Positions 7,020 through 20,963 of a stretch of DNA of 44,064 bases are shown one piece after another. Both the position numbers and the translations under genes were made by a program. The stretch's first letter is position 1. Each line of letters begins with the position of its first letter. Below the pieces are notes generated by a model. The model saw nothing but the letters and a program-made list of their open reading frames with translations. It had not been told where the DNA came from and searched no databases. Location of the stretch: NCBI GenBank assembly GCA_001917995.1, contig MNFB01000057.1:1-44064 (forward strand), in the 5' to 3' direction. Source of the DNA: Thaumarchaeota archaeon 13_1_40CM_4_38_7. Its GTDB lineage: Archaea > Thermoproteota > Nitrososphaeria > Nitrososphaerales > Nitrosopumilaceae.

Positions 7020-8207
7020 ATGAAAGGAAAAGCAGTTCTGGCCTTCTCTGGTGGACTGGACACATCAGTTGTTGTAAAATATCTTCAAGAAAAACACAAC
7101 CTCGATGTTGTTACAGTGACAATAGATGTTGGCCAAGGCGATGATCAAAAAAAGATTGCCGCAAAGGCAAAGAGTCTAGGAGTTATAAGACACTACAATT
7201 TAGATGCTAGGCAAGAATTTGTAAGAGATTTTATCTTCCCTTCTATTAAAGCAAATGCACTTTACCAGAAAAAATACTGTCTTGCAACAGCGCTAGCAAG
7301 GCCGCTTATTGCACAAAAGGTTGTAGAAATAGCAAAAAAGGAAAACGCGAAGGCGTTAGCTCATGGCTGTACTGGAAAAGGAAACGATCAAGTGAGGTTT
7401 GATGTCACAATGCGATCTAGATCTGGTCTTCCAATTATTGCTCCAATTCGGGATCTTAATCTTACACGTGATGTCGAATTAAAATTTGCAAAAAAACATG
7501 GTATCAAAATTGATACTGCGGCAAAGAGGTTTAGCATCGATCAAAATTTGTGGGGAAGGGCAATAGAAGGTGGAGAATTGGAAAATGCGTATGCTGAACC
7601 TCCAGAGGATGCGTTCATCTGGGTAAAAACAAAGGATCTACCTGAAAAACCGCAGTATTTGGAGATCAAGTTTAGCCAAGGAGTACCGGTATCAGCAGAC
7701 GGCAAAAATCTCAAGCCAATAGAACTTATCGAATATATCAACAAAAAGGCTGGAAATTGTGGTATTGGAATAGTAGACCACATAGAAGATAGAGTGGTAG
7801 GCATAAAATCACGAGAGGTCTATGAAACACCTGCGGCTACTTGCCTCATTGAGGCACATACCGATCTAGAAAAGATGACGCTTACAAAACATGAACTGAA
7901 ATTCAAGTCCATAGTTGATTCAGAATGGGCATGGTTAGCATATTCTGGACTCTGGCAAGATCCTCTGAAATCTGATTTAGATATGTTTATCAATGCGACG
8001 CAAAAGAGAGTTAGCGGAACTGTAAAGCTAAAAATGTTCAAAGGAAGTCTGCGAGTTGTTGGAAGGAAATCGAATTATTCGTTGTATAGGCATGACTTGG
8101 CAACATACGGATCTGGTTCTACTTTTGACCAAACTCTTGCAAAAGGATTCGTTGAATTATGGGGACTTCAATCAACAGAAGCTAATAAATTACTAAAAAA
8201 GAGGTGA
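7020..8207 (+). CDS. argG: Argininosuccinate synthase
   Basis: AFSGGLDTSVVVKYLQ ATP-pyrophosphatase motif; AHGCTGKGNDQVRFD; 395 aa. Confidence 0.96.
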   Translation: MKGKAVLAFSGGLDTSVVVKYLQEKHNLDVVTVTIDVGQGDDQKKIAAKAKSLGVIRHYNLDARQEFVRDFIFPSIKANALYQKKYCLATALARPLIAQKVVEIAKKENAKALAHGCTGKGNDQVRFDVTMRSRSGLPIIAPIRDLNLTRDVELKFAKKHGIKIDTAAKRFSIDQNLWGRAIEGGELENAYAEPPEDAFIWVKTKDLPEKPQYLEIKFSQGVPVSADGKNLKPIELIEYINKKAGNCGIGIVDHIEDRVVGIKSREVYETPAATCLIEAHTDLEKMTLTKHELKFKSIVDSEWAWLAYSGLWQDPLKSDLDMFINATQKRVSGTVKLKMFKGSLRVVGRKSNYSLYRHDLATYGSGSTFDQTLAKGFVELWGLQSTEANKLLKKR

Positions 8208-8218
8208 GAGATCAAAGA

Positions 8219-8386
8219 ATGAATTGCCCAGAATGTGACGCCAAAATAAAAATTCCAGACGACGCAAGTGTTGGAGAAATAATTTCTTGTCCTGATTGTG
8301 GGGCAGATTTTGAGATTGCTTCCAAAAACAGTGGCGTATGTGAATTAAAACATGCTGAAAAAGTAGGCGAAGATTGGGGAGAATAG
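8219..8386 (+). CDS. lysW: LysW amino-group carrier protein, copy 1 (C-terminus EDWGE)
   Basis: ATG at 8219: MNCPECDAKIKIPDDASVGEIISCPDCGADFEIASKNSGVCELKHAEKVGEDWGE; two CPxC motifs and the canonical EDWGE tail. Confidence 0.95.
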   Translation: MNCPECDAKIKIPDDASVGEIISCPDCGADFEIASKNSGVCELKHAEKVGEDWGE

Positions 8387-9244
8387 ATGCCGAAGGTTCG
8401 CATTGTGTTCGATAGAGTCCGCGTAGAGGAAAAAATGCTAGAGCAAAAAGCAATTGAGCTAGGACACGATACGAAAATGATTGATGCCAAGACAACCCAG
8501 ATTAACACAGAGAGTAAGAAAAATAATTTTGATTTTGGAGACGTAGTAATCGAAAGATGTGTTAGTTATTTTCGCGGTCTTCATTTTACAGCATGCCTTG
8601 AGTTTCTCGATGTTCCTGTAATCAACAAATTTGAAGTAGCTAATAATTGTGGAAATAAAATGCTGACTTCTCTGTTATTAAGAAAACATAATGTCCCTAC
8701 GCCAAAAACCTACTTTTCCTTTTCCTCAGATGCGGCGCTTGAGACGTTAGATAAAGAGGGATATCCGCTAGTTATCAAACCCATCACAGGTAGTTGGGGA
8801 AGGGGCGTTATGGCCTTAAAGGATAGAGATACTGCCGATGCAATAGTAGAAGTAAGAGAACTAAGTGATGGCCCTCTAGATAGGATATATTACTTGCAAG
8901 AAATGGTAAGGAGGCCTCCAAGAGATATTCGAGCTATAACTGTAGGGGAACAAGTGATTGCTGCCATGTATAGAACTTCAACTGACAGTTTTAAAACAAA
9001 CATAGCTCTTGGGGCAGAACCAATCGCCTGCGAAATCACCAAAGAGCTCGATGATGTTTGCGTCAAAGCATCCAAGGCTGTTGGCGGTGGAATTTTGGGA
9101 ATTGACGTCATGGAAGATGAAAAGCACGGGCTTGTTGTTCATGAAATAAACAACACAGTAGAATTTAAGGGGCTGGCAAAGGTTGCAAAACGAAATATTC
9201 CAAAAGAAATGATCGAGTATGCAATTGCTTCAGCTATAAGATAA
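8387..9244 (+). CDS. LysX/ArgX-family ATP-grasp ligase, copy 1 (likely glutamate-specific ArgX)
   Basis: ERCVSYFRGLH, KPITGSWGRGV, RPPRDIRAITVGE, VVHEINNTVEFKG; follows lysW1. Confidence 0.9.
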   Translation: MPKVRIVFDRVRVEEKMLEQKAIELGHDTKMIDAKTTQINTESKKNNFDFGDVVIERCVSYFRGLHFTACLEFLDVPVINKFEVANNCGNKMLTSLLLRKHNVPTPKTYFSFSSDAALETLDKEGYPLVIKPITGSWGRGVMALKDRDTADAIVEVRELSDGPLDRIYYLQEMVRRPPRDIRAITVGEQVIAAMYRTSTDSFKTNIALGAEPIACEITKELDDVCVKASKAVGGGILGIDVMEDEKHGLVVHEINNTVEFKGLAKVAKRNIPKEMIEYAIASAIR

Positions 9245-9274: not shown

Positions 9275-10327
9275 ATGAAAATCGGTGTAGTCGGAGCATC
9301 AGGGTATGTAGGAGGAGAAATTCTCAGACTACTTGTCAGCCATCCCAAAGTAGAGATAGCAACGGTTACTTCAAGGCAGTATGTTGGAGAGTATATCTCT
9401 AGAGTTCAACCTGCCCTGAAAGGATTTACTGAGCTAACATTTTCTGAGCTTGATTACGACAAGTTGTCAGACAAATGTGATCTAGTGTTTACAGCGGTAC
9501 CACATGGAACAGCAGTAGACATTGTAAAAGCACTTTATGATCGTGGTATGAAAGTAATAGATTTGAGTGCGGACTATCGATTACACAACGCGCCTGATTA
9601 TGACAAATGGTATGGATGGCAGCATCCATATCCTGAGCTGCTTTCAAAGTCAGTATTTGGAATTCCAGAAATGCACAGAGAAGAAATCAAAAAAGCTCAG
9701 CTAGTTTCATGCCCTGGATGCATGGCGGTGACATCCATTCTTGGATTATACCCAATCATAAAGAAGAACATTATAGATTCGGAACACATTGTAGTAGATT
9801 CAAAGATTGGATCGTCAGGAGCTGGGGCTGGTTCTGAGGCAGGGACTCATCACGCGATGAGATCTGGAGTCATAAGACCCTACAAACCAGCTAAACACAG
9901 GCACACCGGTGAAATTGAACAAGAGCTAAGCCAAGTAGCTGGTAAGAAAATCAAAATATCCATGAGTCCTCATGCAGTGGATGTAGTAAGAGGAATTTTG
10001 TGTACAAATCACACTTTCCTTACTCAGGAAGTAAGTGAAATGGATATCTGGAAGATATATCGTGAGCAGTACCAAAACGAAAAATTCATCAGACTAATTC
10101 GTGACAAGAAAGGATTCTATAAATTTCCTGATCCAAAGTTTGTAGTAGGATCCAACTTTTGTGATGTTGGATTTGATATAGACGAGGACAATCATAGGTT
10201 AGTTGTACTCTCAGCATCAGACAACCTAATGAAAGGGGCCGCAGGTTCTGCCATACAAAACATGAACGTTATGGCAGGATTCAATGAGATGGATGGTCTA
10301 GCGTACTCGCCATTAACTCCTGTGTGA
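9275..10327 (+). CDS. argC: LysW-phosphate reductase (ArgC/LysY)
   Basis: VGASGYVGGEILRLL; VSCPGCMAVTSILGLYPI; AGAGSEAGTHHAMR; 350 aa. Confidence 0.93.
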   Translation: MKIGVVGASGYVGGEILRLLVSHPKVEIATVTSRQYVGEYISRVQPALKGFTELTFSELDYDKLSDKCDLVFTAVPHGTAVDIVKALYDRGMKVIDLSADYRLHNAPDYDKWYGWQHPYPELLSKSVFGIPEMHREEIKKAQLVSCPGCMAVTSILGLYPIIKKNIIDSEHIVVDSKIGSSGAGAGSEAGTHHAMRSGVIRPYKPAKHRHTGEIEQELSQVAGKKIKISMSPHAVDVVRGILCTNHTFLTQEVSEMDIWKIYREQYQNEKFIRLIRDKKGFYKFPDPKFVVGSNFCDVGFDIDEDNHRLVVLSASDNLMKGAAGSAIQNMNVMAGFNEMDGLAYSPLTPV

Positions 10328-10331
10328 AAAT

Positions 10332-11132
10332 ATGATAACGATCAAGATAGGAGGAAGTGTGGTAGATGGTCTTCACCCTTCTACAATCTCAGACCTAAAA
10401 AAAGTATCTCAACATGAAAAAATAATACTAGTACATGGTGGTGGTAAAGAAGTCACCAAGATTTCTGAAGCTCTTGGAAAAGAACAGAAATTCATAGTAT
10501 CTCCTGGTGGAATAAAGAGTAGATATACTGACAAGGAGACAATAGAGATTTTTACGATGGTCATGTCAGGCAAGATAAATAAAATGATTGTCAGAATCCT
10601 ACAAAAAAACGGAATCAATGCAGTTGGTCTTTCTGGAATAGATGGAAAAATAATCCAGGCCGAAAGAAAAAAGAAGCTAATTGTGATAAACGAAAAAGGA
10701 AGAAAGATGGCAATTGATGGTGGATATACTGGAAAAATACAGGATGTAAATTCTAGTCTTGTAAGTGTAATCTTGGATCAAGGATATGTTCCAGTCATAT
10801 CCCCCATAGCACTAAGTGAAGAGTTTGATTTTCTAAACGTAGATGGCGACCGAGCTGCTGCATATGTAGCAGGAAAAATGCACTCAGACAAGATCCTATT
10901 CCTTACTAACGTAGATGGTTTGATGATGGACGATAAACTAGTCAAAAAGTTATCCTTATCAAAGGCAAAGGAAATTTTACCAAAAATAGGATTTGGCATG
11001 GAAAAGAAAATTCTTGCTGCAACAGAAGCACTGGAGTTAGGCGTAAAAGAAGCATTAGTTGCAAATGGTCAAAAGGAAAATCCAATATCATCGGCCATTG
11101 CTCACGATAATTGTACGGTGATTTCAAGATGA
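10332..11132 (+). CDS. argB: LysW-amino acid kinase (ArgB/LysZ)
   Basis: MITIKIGGSVVDG; ILVHGGGKEVTKI; GLSGIDGKIIQAERKKKLIVINEKGRK. Confidence 0.92.
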   Translation: MITIKIGGSVVDGLHPSTISDLKKVSQHEKIILVHGGGKEVTKISEALGKEQKFIVSPGGIKSRYTDKETIEIFTMVMSGKINKMIVRILQKNGINAVGLSGIDGKIIQAERKKKLIVINEKGRKMAIDGGYTGKIQDVNSSLVSVILDQGYVPVISPIALSEEFDFLNVDGDRAAAYVAGKMHSDKILFLTNVDGLMMDDKLVKKLSLSKAKEILPKIGFGMEKKILAATEALELGVKEALVANGQKENPISSAIAHDNCTVISR

Positions 11133-12304
11133 CTGAAGATCAATTCATGGGAAATATCTATCAAAGATTTCCCGTTACAATTGAACGTGGACTTGGAGCT
11201 CATGTATGGGACATAAACGGAAAGGAGTACATAGACTGCATGGGTGGTTATGGCGTAGCTCTAGTAGGCCATTGTAATCCTCGTGTAGTTCAAGCTCTTA
11301 AAACACAACTTGAAAAGATCATCACTGTTCACAGTTCCCTTTACAACAAAACTAGAGAAGAGTTTCTTGAGAACCTCATTAAGATAGCGCCGAAGAATCT
11401 GGGTCAAGTATTTCTTAATAACAGTGGAACCGAAGCGGTTGAGGCTGCCATAAAATTTGCGCGTAAATTTACTGGAAAGAAAGGAATGATAGCTATGAAT
11501 GGATCGTATCATGGAAAGTCATTTGGTTCACTTTCGGTTACCTTCAGCCCAAAGTACCGCAAATCGTTTGAACCACTTGTAGAAAGTGTTTCATTTACGC
11601 CATTTGGTGATATTGATGCTTTACGTTCTAATGTAAATTCTGAAACAGCACTTATCATTCTAGAACCGATTCAAGGAGAAAGTGGAATTCATGTTGCTCC
11701 AGATGGCTTTCTGCAAGAAGTAAGAAAATTGTGTGACGAAAAAGGAATTGTTTTGATATTTGATGAAATTCAGTCAGGTCTAGGAAGAACAGGCAAAATG
11801 TGGGCAAGCCAACACTGGGAAACTGCTCCCGATATCATGTGTCTTGCAAAAGGAATAGCTGGTGGAGTTCCTATGGGCGCCACTCTAGTAAGGCCAGATA
11901 TTTTGGCTTCAATTAGCAAAGGTGAACAGTCATCTACGTTTGGTGGAAATCCTCTTTCTTGTGCAGCAGGAACTGCAACCATTAAGGCCCTTACTGAAGA
12001 CCAATTAGTGGAAAATGCTGTAAAAAAGGGAAAGATTTTTCACGAGGGATTGGAAAGACTAAAAGAAAAGCACAAAATAATTCGCGAAGTTCGAGGCAAG
12101 GGTTTGATGATTGGGGTAGAAATGAAATTTGATGTAAAAGATATTTTATTTGATGGAATCGCAAATAACCTATTACTACTTTATTCAGGCAAGAACATAT
12201 TACGATTATTGCCTCCGCTCGTAATTTCCGAAGCAGACATAAACAAAGCTTTAGAAACTCTCGATATCATATTATCAAAGGAGGAACAGCGAAGAAATGT
12301 CTAG
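11129..12304 (+). CDS. argD: LysW-semialdehyde aminotransferase (ArgD/LysJ)
   Basis: Class III PLP aminotransferase: LIFDEIQSGLGRTGKMWASQHW, LAKGIAGGVPMGA; ATG at 11129 overlaps the argB stop. Confidence 0.92.
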   Translation: MTEDQFMGNIYQRFPVTIERGLGAHVWDINGKEYIDCMGGYGVALVGHCNPRVVQALKTQLEKIITVHSSLYNKTREEFLENLIKIAPKNLGQVFLNNSGTEAVEAAIKFARKFTGKKGMIAMNGSYHGKSFGSLSVTFSPKYRKSFEPLVESVSFTPFGDIDALRSNVNSETALIILEPIQGESGIHVAPDGFLQEVRKLCDEKGIVLIFDEIQSGLGRTGKMWASQHWETAPDIMCLAKGIAGGVPMGATLVRPDILASISKGEQSSTFGGNPLSCAAGTATIKALTEDQLVENAVKKGKIFHEGLERLKEKHKIIREVRGKGLMIGVEMKFDVKDILFDGIANNLLLLYSGKNILRLLPPLVISEADINKALETLDIILSKEEQRRNV

Positions 12305-12716
12305 AGACAAAACAGATGATACTATAATTGAAATGTTAAAAAAAGATTCAAGACAGTCTTTTGTTGAAATTGGTGTAAAACTGAGTCTTTCGGAATCGGC
12401 TGTCAGAAGAAGAGTCAAGAATTTAACTGATGGTGGTGTGATAAAAAAATTCACCATTGAAACCGGCGATGCTAACTCTACTAGTGCAATAATCCTAATT
12501 TCAGTGGATTCTGCAACAGACACATCCAAAGTCTCAGCAAAGCTAGCAAAGCTACAAGGCATTCACACAGTTTATGAAATTACTGGTCAATATGATATTG
12601 CTGTAATCATCAGAGCGCCAACAATCACGGACATAAATGTCTGTATAGATAATCTACGAAAAGTTCCTGGTGTTTTTGACACCAATACAGTAATAATACT
12701 TCGAACTGTAACTTAA
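12297..12716 (+). CDS. Lrp/AsnC-family regulator (LysM-like)
   Basis: N-terminal HTH (KLSLSESAVRRRVKNLTDGGVIKKFTIE) plus RAM domain; sits inside the amino-acid cluster. Confidence 0.88.
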   Translation: MSRDKTDDTIIEMLKKDSRQSFVEIGVKLSLSESAVRRRVKNLTDGGVIKKFTIETGDANSTSAIILISVDSATDTSKVSAKLAKLQGIHTVYEITGQYDIAVIIRAPTITDINVCIDNLRKVPGVFDTNTVIILRTVT

Positions 12717-12832: not shown

Positions 12833-14023
12833 ATGGAAGATCCGAATTACTACGCATACATGCATAACGAAACTGGTACAAAACCAAAAAAGATTCGTAT
12901 CCTAGATAGTACTCTAAGAGAAGGAGAACAACATCCTGGTGTAACATTTTCGAACAAGCAGCGGATTCAGATTGCATGGATGCTTGATTACTTTGGCGTT
13001 GACCAAATAGAAATTTCTCCAGTAGTGTCATCTGATCATAAAGAAGCTACAAAGACCATAATCAAGCAGGGATTAAGAGCTGATATTGTAGCACACGTAC
13101 GTGCACTCAAAGAAGATGTTGACATTGCACTTGACTGCGATGCTACTTGGATGGCAACATATCTTGGCATATCAGACATACATATGAAAGACAAGCTGAG
13201 AATAACCCGGGAAGAAGCCATGAAAAGAGCGGTTGAAACTGTTGAATATGCTAAATCGCATGGTTTGAAGATGAGATTTACAGTAGAGGATGCCAGCAGA
13301 GCAGAACCTGAATTCTTGATTAAGATATGCAAGGCAATCTCCGATGCAGGAGTTGATAGAATAAGCATACCAGATACAGTCGGAATAATGAGACCAAATG
13401 GTATGTATAATCTTGTGAAAACTGTTCGTGATGAAATCAAGACCCCCCTTGATGTACATTGCCATAATGATATTGGTCTGGCATTATCAAATGCTTTGGC
13501 AGGATGTGATGCAGGCGCAGAACAAATCCATACTACAATTGACGGAATTGGTGAAAGAACAGGTATACCTGCTCTTGCAGAGACAGCAGTTGCACTGACA
13601 TATCTTTACAAATCTCCAAACAATTTCAGATTAGATATGCTAATGGATCTCTCAAGATTGATTGAGCAATACACAAACATAGTTCCATACGATTCCAAGC
13701 CTGTTGTTGGTGCAACGGCCTATAAGCACAAGGCTGGAACACACTTGGCTGCCATCCTTAGAAATCCTGCCGCATACGAGCCAATTGAGCCCAAAGTTGT
13801 CGGTAACAGAAGGAGGTTAGTTTTTGGAGAGCTTGCTGGAAAGAATGGTGCTGCCTACCTCATGTCGCTTTTAGGCCTAGACCAGAATGATGAGAATGCA
13901 AAAAAGGTAGCTGCGGGGCTCAAGAGTCTAAGAATGGGAGATTTACTTGAAATTCCTTTAGATGATAGGCTAGAAAAAAAGATAATTAATGACACCCAAG
14001 TGAAAGTAAAGACAGGTAAATAA
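12833..14023 (+). CDS. lysS: Homocitrate synthase (LysS-type)
   Basis: RILDSTLREGEQHPGVTFS; DVHCHNDIGLALSNALAGCDAGAEQIHTTIDGIGERTG; next to lysW/lysX/lysK. Confidence 0.85.
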   Translation: MEDPNYYAYMHNETGTKPKKIRILDSTLREGEQHPGVTFSNKQRIQIAWMLDYFGVDQIEISPVVSSDHKEATKTIIKQGLRADIVAHVRALKEDVDIALDCDATWMATYLGISDIHMKDKLRITREEAMKRAVETVEYAKSHGLKMRFTVEDASRAEPEFLIKICKAISDAGVDRISIPDTVGIMRPNGMYNLVKTVRDEIKTPLDVHCHNDIGLALSNALAGCDAGAEQIHTTIDGIGERTGIPALAETAVALTYLYKSPNNFRLDMLMDLSRLIEQYTNIVPYDSKPVVGATAYKHKAGTHLAAILRNPAAYEPIEPKVVGNRRRLVFGELAGKNGAAYLMSLLGLDQNDENAKKVAAGLKSLRMGDLLEIPLDDRLEKKIINDTQVKVKTGK

Positions 14024-14024
14024 T

Positions 14025-14189
14025 ATGAAATGTCCAGAATGTGATGCCAACATCAATCCCCCAAAAGACTCTATGGAGGGAGAGATAATTACTTGCCCAG
14101 ACTGTGGTGCAAGTTTTGAGCTTACAAAGGGGTCGTCCGGCTTTGAGTTGAAACCAGCACAAACTGTTGGTGAGGACTGGGGCCAGTGA
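14025..14189 (+). CDS. lysW: LysW amino-group carrier protein, copy 2, with variant C-terminus EDWGQ
   Basis: 54-codon ORF missed by the track: MKCPECDANINPPKDSMEGEIITCPDCGASFELTKGSSGFELKPAQTVGEDWGQ*; 3' end reads GGT GAG GAC TGG GGC CAG TGA. Confidence 0.93.
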   Translation: MKCPECDANINPPKDSMEGEIITCPDCGASFELTKGSSGFELKPAQTVGEDWGQ

Positions 14190-15034
14190 GCTCAAGATTA
14201 TCGATTCTCTACGATACCATAAGGTGGGAAGAAAAAGCTCTCTTCGATGCAGCTAAAACAAAGGGCGTTGATGCTAAGATGGTAGACTGTAAGAATTTGT
14301 TTGTAAATCTAGATAAAAGCAAAGAAGACTTTGGAACTGTTATCCAAAGATGTGTTAGTTATTATCGTAGCCTTCACTCTACCGCAGCGCTTGAGGGTAA
14401 AGAAGTCAATGTGATAAATTCTTTGAACACTAGTATTTTTGCTGGAAATAAACTGTTTACTCATATGCTGCTAGTAAAACATGGAATACCTACTCCCTTC
14501 AGTGCCGTTGCCTTTTCAGAAGATGCTGCGCTTGGACTTCTTGAGAAAAGAGGTTATCCAATGGTTTTGAAACCTACGATTGGAAGTTGGGGCAGGATGA
14601 TAGCTTTACTAAAAGATCGCGATTCAGCCCAAGGCATCATGGAAACTAGAGAGAGGATGTACCCAATTTATCAGGTATATTATTTAGAAGAGTTTGTCAA
14701 CAGACCGCCTCGTGATATTAGGGCTATCATGATAGAAGACAGGGTTGTTGCTGCAATATATCGATACTCAGGCGATGGGCAGTGGAAAACGAACATGGCA
14801 TTAGGTGGTAGGGCAGAAGAATGTAAGATTACCAAGGAACTTGAGGATGTTTGTGTCAAAGCAAAAAATGCTGTTCAAGGCCAAATCGTTGGGATAGATT
14901 TGATGGAAAGTAAGGAAAAAGGACTGGTAGTTCATGAGATTAACAATACAACGGAATACAAAAATACCGTAAGAGTTACTGGCGTAGATATACCAGCCTT
15001 GATGATTGATTATGCAATAAAGTCGAGAAAATAA
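14186..15034 (+). CDS. lysX: LysX-family ATP-grasp ligase, copy 2 (likely alpha-aminoadipate-LysW ligase)
   Basis: GTG start in a 4-nt GTGA overlap with lysW2; IQRCVSYYRSLH, KPTIGSWGRM, NRPPRDIRAI, HEINNTTEYKNTVRVTGVDIP. Confidence 0.9.
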   Translation: MSSRLSILYDTIRWEEKALFDAAKTKGVDAKMVDCKNLFVNLDKSKEDFGTVIQRCVSYYRSLHSTAALEGKEVNVINSLNTSIFAGNKLFTHMLLVKHGIPTPFSAVAFSEDAALGLLEKRGYPMVLKPTIGSWGRMIALLKDRDSAQGIMETRERMYPIYQVYYLEEFVNRPPRDIRAIMIEDRVVAAIYRYSGDGQWKTNMALGGRAEECKITKELEDVCVKAKNAVQGQIVGIDLMESKEKGLVVHEINNTTEYKNTVRVTGVDIPALMIDYAIKSRK

Positions 15035-15037
15035 GAA

Positions 15038-16180
15038 TTGGACTCTTCAATAACCATTACACCTAGGTATTCAGTAAAGATGCTAGAGAAGGTTCTAAGA
15101 CTGTACACTCCTTCCCTATCAGAAAAACAACTAGCCGAGTTCTTAGCTGACAAATGTGACGATCTAGGATTTGAAAATATACGCATAGATGAAGTAGGAA
15201 ATCTTACTGCAACAAAAGGATCTGGTTCGCCAAAAATCTTGCTTTGTGGTCATATGGATACAGTGCCAGGAAAGATAAAAGTAAGAAATGAAAATGGATT
15301 CATTTATGGTCGCGGAGCTTCTGATGCAAAAGCACCACTAATGGCAATGCTTCTAGCAGCTGCTTCCCTTCAAAACAATAATGGAACAATAGTATTTGCA
15401 GCAGTTGTAGACGAAGAGGGAAATGCAACTGGGATCAAGAGTCTTGTAAAACAAAAGCTTGACATAGATTATGCAATTTTTGGAGAACCAAGTGGAATTA
15501 GAAATATTACAATTGCCTACAAGGGTAGGATAGCCATAAATCTAAAAGTAAATGTAGGAAACAGTGCTCATGCAAGTGCACCATGGCTTGCGAAAAATGC
15601 AATCGAAGAATCATATATTTTTATAAATGCTCTAAAAAACGCATTGGAAGGTAATCAATCCAACAAACCAAAAAGCAAGATGTTAACTGCGGCACTCACA
15701 GAAATTAAGGGTGGCACAAGTCATAACGTGACTGCACTAGAGTGCGATGCTATTTTGGACATAAGGATACCAGTAGATATGAATTGCAAGATGGTAGGAG
15801 AAAAGATTGCGACTACAGTTCAAGAGATTGCAAAGAAACAAGGAGTAAATGCATTTTATTCTATATTGGATGAAACTGAGCCCTTTGAGGCGCCACACAA
15901 TTCTCCACTTGTCAGGGCGTTAACACTAGGCATCATTGATATAGAAAAGACAAGACCCCAGCTGATAAGAAAGACTGGAACTGGTGATATGAATATCATA
16001 GGAAATGCGTTGAATATACCGGTTGTAACTTATGGGCCAGGCGATCCTCATGCCTCTCACACAATTGATGAACGAGTATCGACAGATGAATATCTTAGGA
16101 GTATTGAGGTGTTTAAACAAATGATGCATCACATTAGAAGATTACATGCAAACCCAATTAAATCGCAAAAAGCAACATAG
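15038..16180 (+). CDS. lysK: [LysW]-lysine/ornithine hydrolase (M20 peptidase family)
   Basis: ILLCGHMDTVPGKI; IYGRGASDAKAPL; AVVDEEGNATG; TTG start just after lysX2. Confidence 0.88.
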   Translation: MDSSITITPRYSVKMLEKVLRLYTPSLSEKQLAEFLADKCDDLGFENIRIDEVGNLTATKGSGSPKILLCGHMDTVPGKIKVRNENGFIYGRGASDAKAPLMAMLLAAASLQNNNGTIVFAAVVDEEGNATGIKSLVKQKLDIDYAIFGEPSGIRNITIAYKGRIAINLKVNVGNSAHASAPWLAKNAIEESYIFINALKNALEGNQSNKPKSKMLTAALTEIKGGTSHNVTALECDAILDIRIPVDMNCKMVGEKIATTVQEIAKKQGVNAFYSILDETEPFEAPHNSPLVRALTLGIIDIEKTRPQLIRKTGTGDMNIIGNALNIPVVTYGPGDPHASHTIDERVSTDEYLRSIEVFKQMMHHIRRLHANPIKSQKAT

Positions 16181-20273: not shown

Positions 20274-20963
20274 ATGTCTGACATACTAATTATACAAAAC
20301 GCAAGATATGAGGGACCTGCGGTACTAGGAGAATTACTTAGGGCAGACGGCTTTGATACCACAACAGTCTTGGCAAAAAAAGAAAAGATACCTGCGATCG
20401 AACCACGTGCCATAGTGATTCTTGGTGCACCTGAAAGTGCAAACGATGATTTTCCATACCTTAGGGAAGAACTTAATCTTATAAGAGAATCAGTCAGAAA
20501 GAACATACCGGTACTTGGAATATGCTTAGGATCTCAACTTATTGCAAAGTCATTGGGGGCCAGAGTCTACCAAGGAAATAGGAAAGAAATTGGTTTCTAT
20601 CAAGATATCGAATTTGATAATACAGTTGACTCGAAACTTTTCTATGGTATCAAGAGTCCTGCAATGGTATTTCATTGGCATGGAGATACCTTTGACCTTC
20701 CCAAGGGCGCCATAAGATTGGCTCATTCAAAGGATTACGAAAATCAGGCATTCAGGCTTGATAGTTCCGTAGGCGTACAATTTCATCTTGAAGTAGATGA
20801 ATCAATCATACGATTGTGGCTTGAAAAGTCAAAAAACGAACTCAGTAAGGTTTCTTACATTAATCCAGAAGAAATAGCTAAAAAAATACCCCAGAATATA
20901 GACACGATTCAAAACAACATGAGAACATTTTATCGAAATTTTAAGTCAGAATTTAATCTTTGA
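20274..20963 (+). CDS. Class I glutamine amidotransferase (GMP synthase GATase-like)
   Basis: VLGICLGSQLIAKSLGA nucleophile elbow; VFHWHGDTFDLP; VQFHLEVDES. Confidence 0.86.
   Translation: MSDILIIQNARYEGPAVLGELLRADGFDTTTVLAKKEKIPAIEPRAIVILGAPESANDDFPYLREELNLIRESVRKNIPVLGICLGSQLIAKSLGARVYQGNRKEIGFYQDIEFDNTVDSKLFYGIKSPAMVFHWHGDTFDLPKGAIRLAHSKDYENQAFRLDSSVGVQFHLEVDESIIRLWLEKSKNELSKVSYINPEEIAKKIPQNIDTIQNNMRTFYRNFKSEFNL

Follow-up and report, generated by a model that had tools for sequence, protein, structure and literature searches.

The window, i.e., the whole 44,064-nucleotide stretch that was analyzed, carries a LysW-type lysine and arginine biosynthesis cluster in the order ArgG, LysW1, LysX1, LysY, LysZ, LysJ, Lrp-type regulator, homocitrate synthase, LysW2, LysX2, and LysK. 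The individual features are as follows.

7020..8207, + strand: argG (argininosuccinate synthase), arginine-side marker, named from sequence and context (ORF list, synteny)
8219..8386, + strand: lysW1 (argW), putative arginine-side carrier with an EDWGE end (profile; argG upstream, ArgX-type ligase downstream in most relatives)
8387..9244, + strand: lysX1 (argX), ATP-grasp ligase beside lysW1 (TIGR02144, 297.2 bits)
9275..10327, + strand: lysY/argC reductase, one copy in the cluster (TIGR01850)
10332..11132, + strand: lysZ, [LysW]-aminoadipate/glutamate kinase (NF010662)
11129..12304, + strand: lysJ/argD aminotransferase (TIGR00707, PF00202)
12297..12716, + strand: Lrp/AsnC-type regulator within the cluster, named from sequence and context (ORF, synteny)
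12833..14023, + strand: homocitrate synthase-type enzyme (HMGL-like plus HCS_D2), lysine-side marker (PF00682, PF22617; TIGR02146 below its cut-off)
14025..14189, + strand: lysW2, putative lysine-side carrier with an EDWGQ end (profiles; homocitrate synthase upstream, LysX downstream)
14186..15034, + strand: lysX2, ATP-grasp ligase beside lysW2 (TIGR02144, 327.8 bits; cut-off, 275.6; GSWGR at residue 133)
15038..16180, + strand: lysK, M20 [LysW]-lysine/ornithine hydrolase, candidate for action on the Gln gamma-amide (TIGR01902, PF01546)

Translation of positions 14025-14189 (+) gave the 54-residue LysW2, MKCPECDANINPPKDSMEGEIITCPDCGASFELTKGSSGFELKPAQTVGEDWGQ*, with the tail ...VGEDWGQ, and LysW1 (ATG at 8219, stop at 8386) ends in ...VGEDWGE, as read in the initial annotation. 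That annotation considered lysW2 to be absent from the ORF track, but the mechanical ORF list does contain the 14025-14189 ORF. The final sense codon of lysW2 is CAG (14184-14186), and its TGA stop shares four bases, as GTGA, with the GTG start of lysX2 (14186). The overlap had been held not to force Gln, and we agree, since a GAG codon would leave GTGA intact, Nitrososphaeraceae have Gln without an overlap, and one genome (G162) has Glu with TGA.

Both LysW proteins of the window exceeded the NCBIfam cut-off of 75 bits for profile NF041070 (carrier_LysW_Arch), with scores of 85.3 (LysW2) and 89.3 bits, and they are the only two LysW copies in the source genome (1.38 Mb, 80% complete). LysW2 also matched PF21344 (45.6 bits; cut-off, 27), and the window LysW sequence clustered with Nitrosotalea and other Nitrosopumilaceae sequences. 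Like the LysW/ArgW carriers of Thermus, Sulfolobus, Thermococcus, and Natrinema, LysW2 combines a zinc ribbon, with both CxxC pairs, and an acidic EDWG tail with an operon containing an adjoining LysX/ArgX ATP-grasp ligase that bears GSWGR and the shared downstream enzymes LysZ, LysY, LysJ, and LysK. Unlike these carriers, LysW2 has Gln in place of the terminal acceptor Glu (EDWGQ instead of EDWGE), a difference that is kept in relatives. Judged by its sequence, LysW2 is a Gln-ending variant of LysW and not a canonical LysW. The terminal Glu of LysW has been described as an essential acceptor, and an E-to-A mutation at this position leaves a haloarchaeon unable to synthesize arginine (PMC10433800).

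ArgG precedes the LysW1/LysX1 pair and homocitrate synthase precedes the LysW2/LysX2 pair. From this gene position, which is constant among relatives, we infer that the Gln-ending carrier is the lysine-side one. The solved chain closest to LysK is that of a [LysW]-lysine hydrolase (5xoy). The window LysK scored 263.6, below the NCBIfam [LysW]-lysine hydrolase cut-off of 363, and annotation pipelines may thus label it as a deacetylase of generic type.

The pattern GEDWGQ-stop and its companion GEDWGE were searched for in 301 genomes of the order, and selected genomes were searched with HMMs. GEDWGQ-stop was present in 202 of the 301 genomes, in which the reversed control pattern had no match. 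It occurred in 130/133 genomes of the ammonia-oxidizing Nitrosopumilaceae (the family of the window), 66/70 of the Nitrososphaeraceae, 6/7 of the Nitrosocaldaceae, and 0/91 of the remaining 14 families, the three names having been assigned to our families f1, f8, and f2 by identical or near-identical LysW sequences in named records. The initial annotation had named GAG in close relatives as a finding that would count against its reading; they carry CAG, apart from three genomes with GAG, and hence Glu, on LysW2 (G162, G296, and G047). A private mutation or sequencing error was rejected, Gln being kept in hundreds of genomes, including closed ones.

Nitrosopumilaceae usually have Glu on LysW1 and Gln on LysW2, the exceptions being Glu on LysW2 in G162 and G296 and two Gln copies in G084 and G253 (Cenarchaeum type). 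The same E/Q state is found in Nitrosocaldaceae, with the exception of one E/E genome (G047). Nitrososphaeraceae comprise Q/Q genomes (G022, G056, G086, G155, and G176), mixed genomes (E/Q in G193; Q/E in G092, G113, and G197), and genomes with a lone Q copy (G007, G041, G049, G063, and G079). Sampled outgroup families were E/E or had one E copy. The Gln form sits on the lysine side in Nitrosopumilaceae and on the arginine side in some Nitrososphaeraceae. The very stable state of the Nitrosopumilaceae means that the choice is not simply neutral.

Beyond these families, Gln-ending LysW was found in other Thermoproteota families (f25, f30, f48, and f51) and, among the matches listed, in Undinarchaeales, and seven of the eight pattern matches obtained in 148 genomes of Jordarchaeia and other Asgard archaea were LysW-like. 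Bacterial GEDWGQ matches, among those listed in the wider contig scan, were rejected as not being LysW; the pattern demands a Gly ahead of Glu-Asp, which limits its reach for bacterial LysW. Diverged LysW-like proteins of Asgard archaea ending in AEDWGQ or DEDWGQ (L393-L396 and L400) apparently represent more independent cases. The initial association of Gln with the second LysW therefore stands as to the residue but was too narrow, since either paralog can end in E or Q, and the alternation extends across several archaeal phyla. A search of the open-access literature, with subscription papers outside its scope, found no mention of EDWGQ and did find EDWGE in the expected papers. The author of the initial annotation was equally unaware of an earlier description, and Gln-ending LysW is a recurrent and apparently undescribed variant of LysW.

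Three closed, single-contig genomes of one genus (g27; G007, G041, and G049), 99% complete, have one LysW by HMM search, which ends in Gln and is near-identical to the LysW of named Nitrosocosmicus records. These genomes retain LysX1, LysX2, LysY, LysZ, LysJ, homocitrate synthase, and LysK. Closed genomes of other Thermoproteota families (G319 and G422) also have one LysW each, with a Gln end. Ammonia oxidizers, which grow on mineral medium, are expected to synthesize lysine as well as arginine. Because the closed Nitrosocosmicus-type genomes, with Gln as the sole LysW end, retain the two ligases together with every downstream gene, Gln-ending LysW is, by gene content, a working carrier and not a decoy. 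In Nitrosocosmicus-type genomes, a single LysW with a Gln end apparently supplies both ligases.

To follow the two residues in evolution, 143 LysX/ArgX proteins were placed on a tree with tips labeled by the last residue of the partner LysW. At least 13 E/Q changes were counted on this tree, which was built by a quick method and contains long branches, and 9 when only well-supported branches were trusted. Shuffled labels gave a mean of 45.9 changes; the real label is far more clustered, indicating that the states persist. Congeners can differ, with Gln in G422 and Glu in G387 and G472. In a sample partly picked for Q, all 66 loci found by HMM ended in E or Q, and no other last residue was found in any LysW examined. 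Five stray codons from a search with a free last codon (Ile, Arg, and Gly ends) were checked and proved to be chance matches outside lysW genes. Glu codons also lie one base from those of Lys, Gly, Ala, Val, and Asp, and the limitation of the LysW end to E and Q therefore points to a need at the gamma position. Gln is the sole other residue able to provide a gamma-carboxylate at this position.

The ligase motif GSWGR, reported to read the EDWGE tail (PMC10433800), was found in 65 of the 67 ligases with a Q partner and in all 70 of those with an E partner. Thirty of the 35 columns conserved in E-partnered ligases were equally conserved in the Q-partnered ones, and the other 5 varied, mostly conservatively. 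No LysX2 column separated E from Q partners (6 E versus 40 Q), and the E/Q column signal of LysX1 was confounded with phylogeny. No LysK column tracked E versus Q, and the conserved residues of LysK were intact. LysK was the only M20 homolog found in the ammonia oxidizers searched, with one match in the source genome. The apparatus for loading thus appears to be unaltered, and these data are most simply read as loss or replacement of the Gln amide at the gamma position.

We therefore favor deamidation or amide exchange for LysW2, a reading based on sequence comparison to which we assign a probability of about 0.6. LysW2 would be a functional amino-group carrier in which Gln is the encoded acceptor. 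The gamma-carboxamide of this Gln would either be hydrolyzed to the gamma-carboxylate or be replaced by the substrate amine, ahead of loading or in the course of it. The resulting LysW intermediate would have the usual gamma-glutamyl linkage, and one set of LysZ, LysY, LysJ, and LysK would handle both Gln- and Glu-ending carriers. The activity would probably reside in a core pathway enzyme, either LysK or LysX, with LysX running backward or exchanging the amide. The substrate that LysK cleaves is LysW-gamma-Glu-NH-R, and a Gln-ending LysW would present the same bond with R = H. We give even odds to the proposal that LysK or LysX performs this hydrolysis or exchange as an unrecognized step, convergent with PupQ/Dop, that would enable Glu/Gln switching in evolution.

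Amide activation would account for the genomes with Gln only, the recurrent E/Q switching, the restriction of the end to E and Q, the unchanged ligase motifs, and the lack of an extra gene, and it has precedents in Pup. Against it, no column of LysK or LysX2 tracks E/Q, so that the sequence does not point to an adapted deamidase. M20 enzymes usually take substrates with a larger leaving group, ammonia being a poor fit, and Undinarchaeales, which have the Gln form, show just a distant M20 match (30% identity), the presence of LysK there being unsure. Cheap and neutral activation would also predict a less constant E/Q state in Nitrosopumilaceae, in which the 130/133 genomes with Q indicate that something holds the states.

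Candidate deamidase genes were sought in and around the clusters. Q operons contained no extra gene, and the Jordarchaeia operon was exactly W-X-Y-Z-J-K; combined with the repeated switching, this points to a core enzyme as the likely seat of the activity. A Dop-like deamidase was rejected, since no Dop/PafA homolog (PF03136) was found in the source genome (80% complete); the family was absent from 59/61 genomes, and the Corynebacterium control matched. PF03136 genes of the PafA/Dop type occur in one congener of the source organism (G294; L385 and L387) and in one genome of another family (G005; L386), possibly through contamination or transfer. The class-I GATase gene near the cluster (20274-20963) was rejected because it does not follow the Q state, being present in genomes with Glu only (G162, G296, and G047) and in outgroups lacking Q and absent from Q-bearing genomes (G319, G409, G422, G301, and G303). 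Inspection of neighboring ORFs revealed no deamidase beside the unlinked lysW of Cenarchaeum-type and other genomes. Solitary LysW genes (L156, L158, L160, L162, and L130) lie beside glycerol-1-phosphate dehydrogenase-like, V-ATPase-like, or other genes, with no ligase nearby.

The parallel with Pup and Dop drawn in the initial annotation proved the best lead, although the likeness is one of logic alone. Pup, like LysW in the systems studied, is a small protein whose point of attachment is the gamma-carboxyl of the C-terminal residue, and the C-terminal G[EQ] of LysW alternates between species as that of Pup does (PMC2588565, PMC3511204). Actinobacterial species carry PupQ or PupE, some genomes having both, and Dop both deamidates PupQ and depupylates (PMC3511204). 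The folds are unrelated, however, the source genome and most relatives have no Dop or PafA homolog, and Pup is a protein tag, whereas LysW carries metabolites and its deamidase is putative.

Loading of LysW-Gln through its alpha-carboxylate is disfavored and, in our view, rather unlikely. Aminoadipate would be joined to EDWGQ by a peptide bond, the pathway would act on this form, and LysK would release the product in a carboxypeptidase-like manner. No deamidase would be necessary, which fits the lack of a linked extra gene, and M20 enzymes include carboxypeptidases. PEARL carrier peptides (3-thiaglutamate, ammosamide) likewise support biosynthesis on an amide-linked ribosomal carrier with proteolytic release of the product, and they are linked at their C-terminal carboxylate (PMC9303977); unlike LysW, they are loaded with aminoacyl-tRNA and have neither the zinc ribbon nor an ATP-grasp LysX. 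However, every residue has an alpha-carboxylate, yet each LysW examined ends in E or Q, the single LysZ, LysY, LysJ, and LysK of the cluster would face two geometries, the ligase motifs do not differ, and the systems studied use the gamma linkage (PMC10433800).

A sub-case of amide activation, distinctly unlikely as a specific route, is that LysX puts the substrate amine in place of the Gln amide in a direct exchange, with no free LysW-Glu. The amide would react with ADP and phosphate to give an acyl-phosphate, or it would undergo transamidation, and hydrolysis would not be required. We know of no such amide-exchange reaction for LysX. This route would account for free E/Q swapping at constant gene content, and the ligase PafA shifts Pup between proteins by its own depupylase activity (PMC5358908), but LysX is an ATP-grasp enzyme and does not have the PafA/Dop fold, and no sequence signature was found among the ligases compared.

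Conversion of Gln by an unlinked general amidase or by spontaneous deamidation, with pathway enzymes uninvolved, is highly improbable. It would fit the lack of a linked candidate gene, and a nonspecific amidase was once proposed by the authors working on Pup (PMC2588565). A suitable enzyme would nevertheless have been required independently in several phyla, the lone class-I GATase near the cluster does not track Q, and Dop/PafA-type enzymes are missing from 59/61 genomes, including the source genome.

The suggestion of the initial annotation that LysW2-Gln is an unloaded decoy or regulator, in which case LysW1-Glu would supply both pathways, has in its favor the presence of LysW1-Glu in the window's genome, the use of one LysW for both pathways in Sulfolobus, and the loss of function upon replacement of the terminal Glu by Ala in Natrinema (PMC10433800), but it is barely credible and is largely refuted by the closed genomes that own just a Gln-ending LysW beside a full pathway gene set and by the five genomes in which both copies end in Q.

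Abundant ammonia-oxidizing archaea have Gln at the position described as the essential acceptor, at times in every cellular carrier. Either lysine and arginine biosynthesis hides an overlooked carrier-activation step, or the loading chemistry departs from its textbook form; given that the Gln form is the only carrier of some species, an unrecognized activation step probably exists. Metabolic models based on the standard LysW scheme (e.g., Nitrosopumilus, PMC6038301) might need one more step.

In G007, G049, G063, G079, and G041 (L133-L137), lysW1 was lost and the argX-type ligase was kept directly after argG. In G128 (L150) and G207 (L149), no LysW1 or LysX1 was found between argG and lysY, and the locus has a single Gln-ending LysW with LysX2. 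The single-contig genome G248 (L163) retains homocitrate synthase and LysX2 but has no lysW2 between the two, and its sole LysW ends in Glu.
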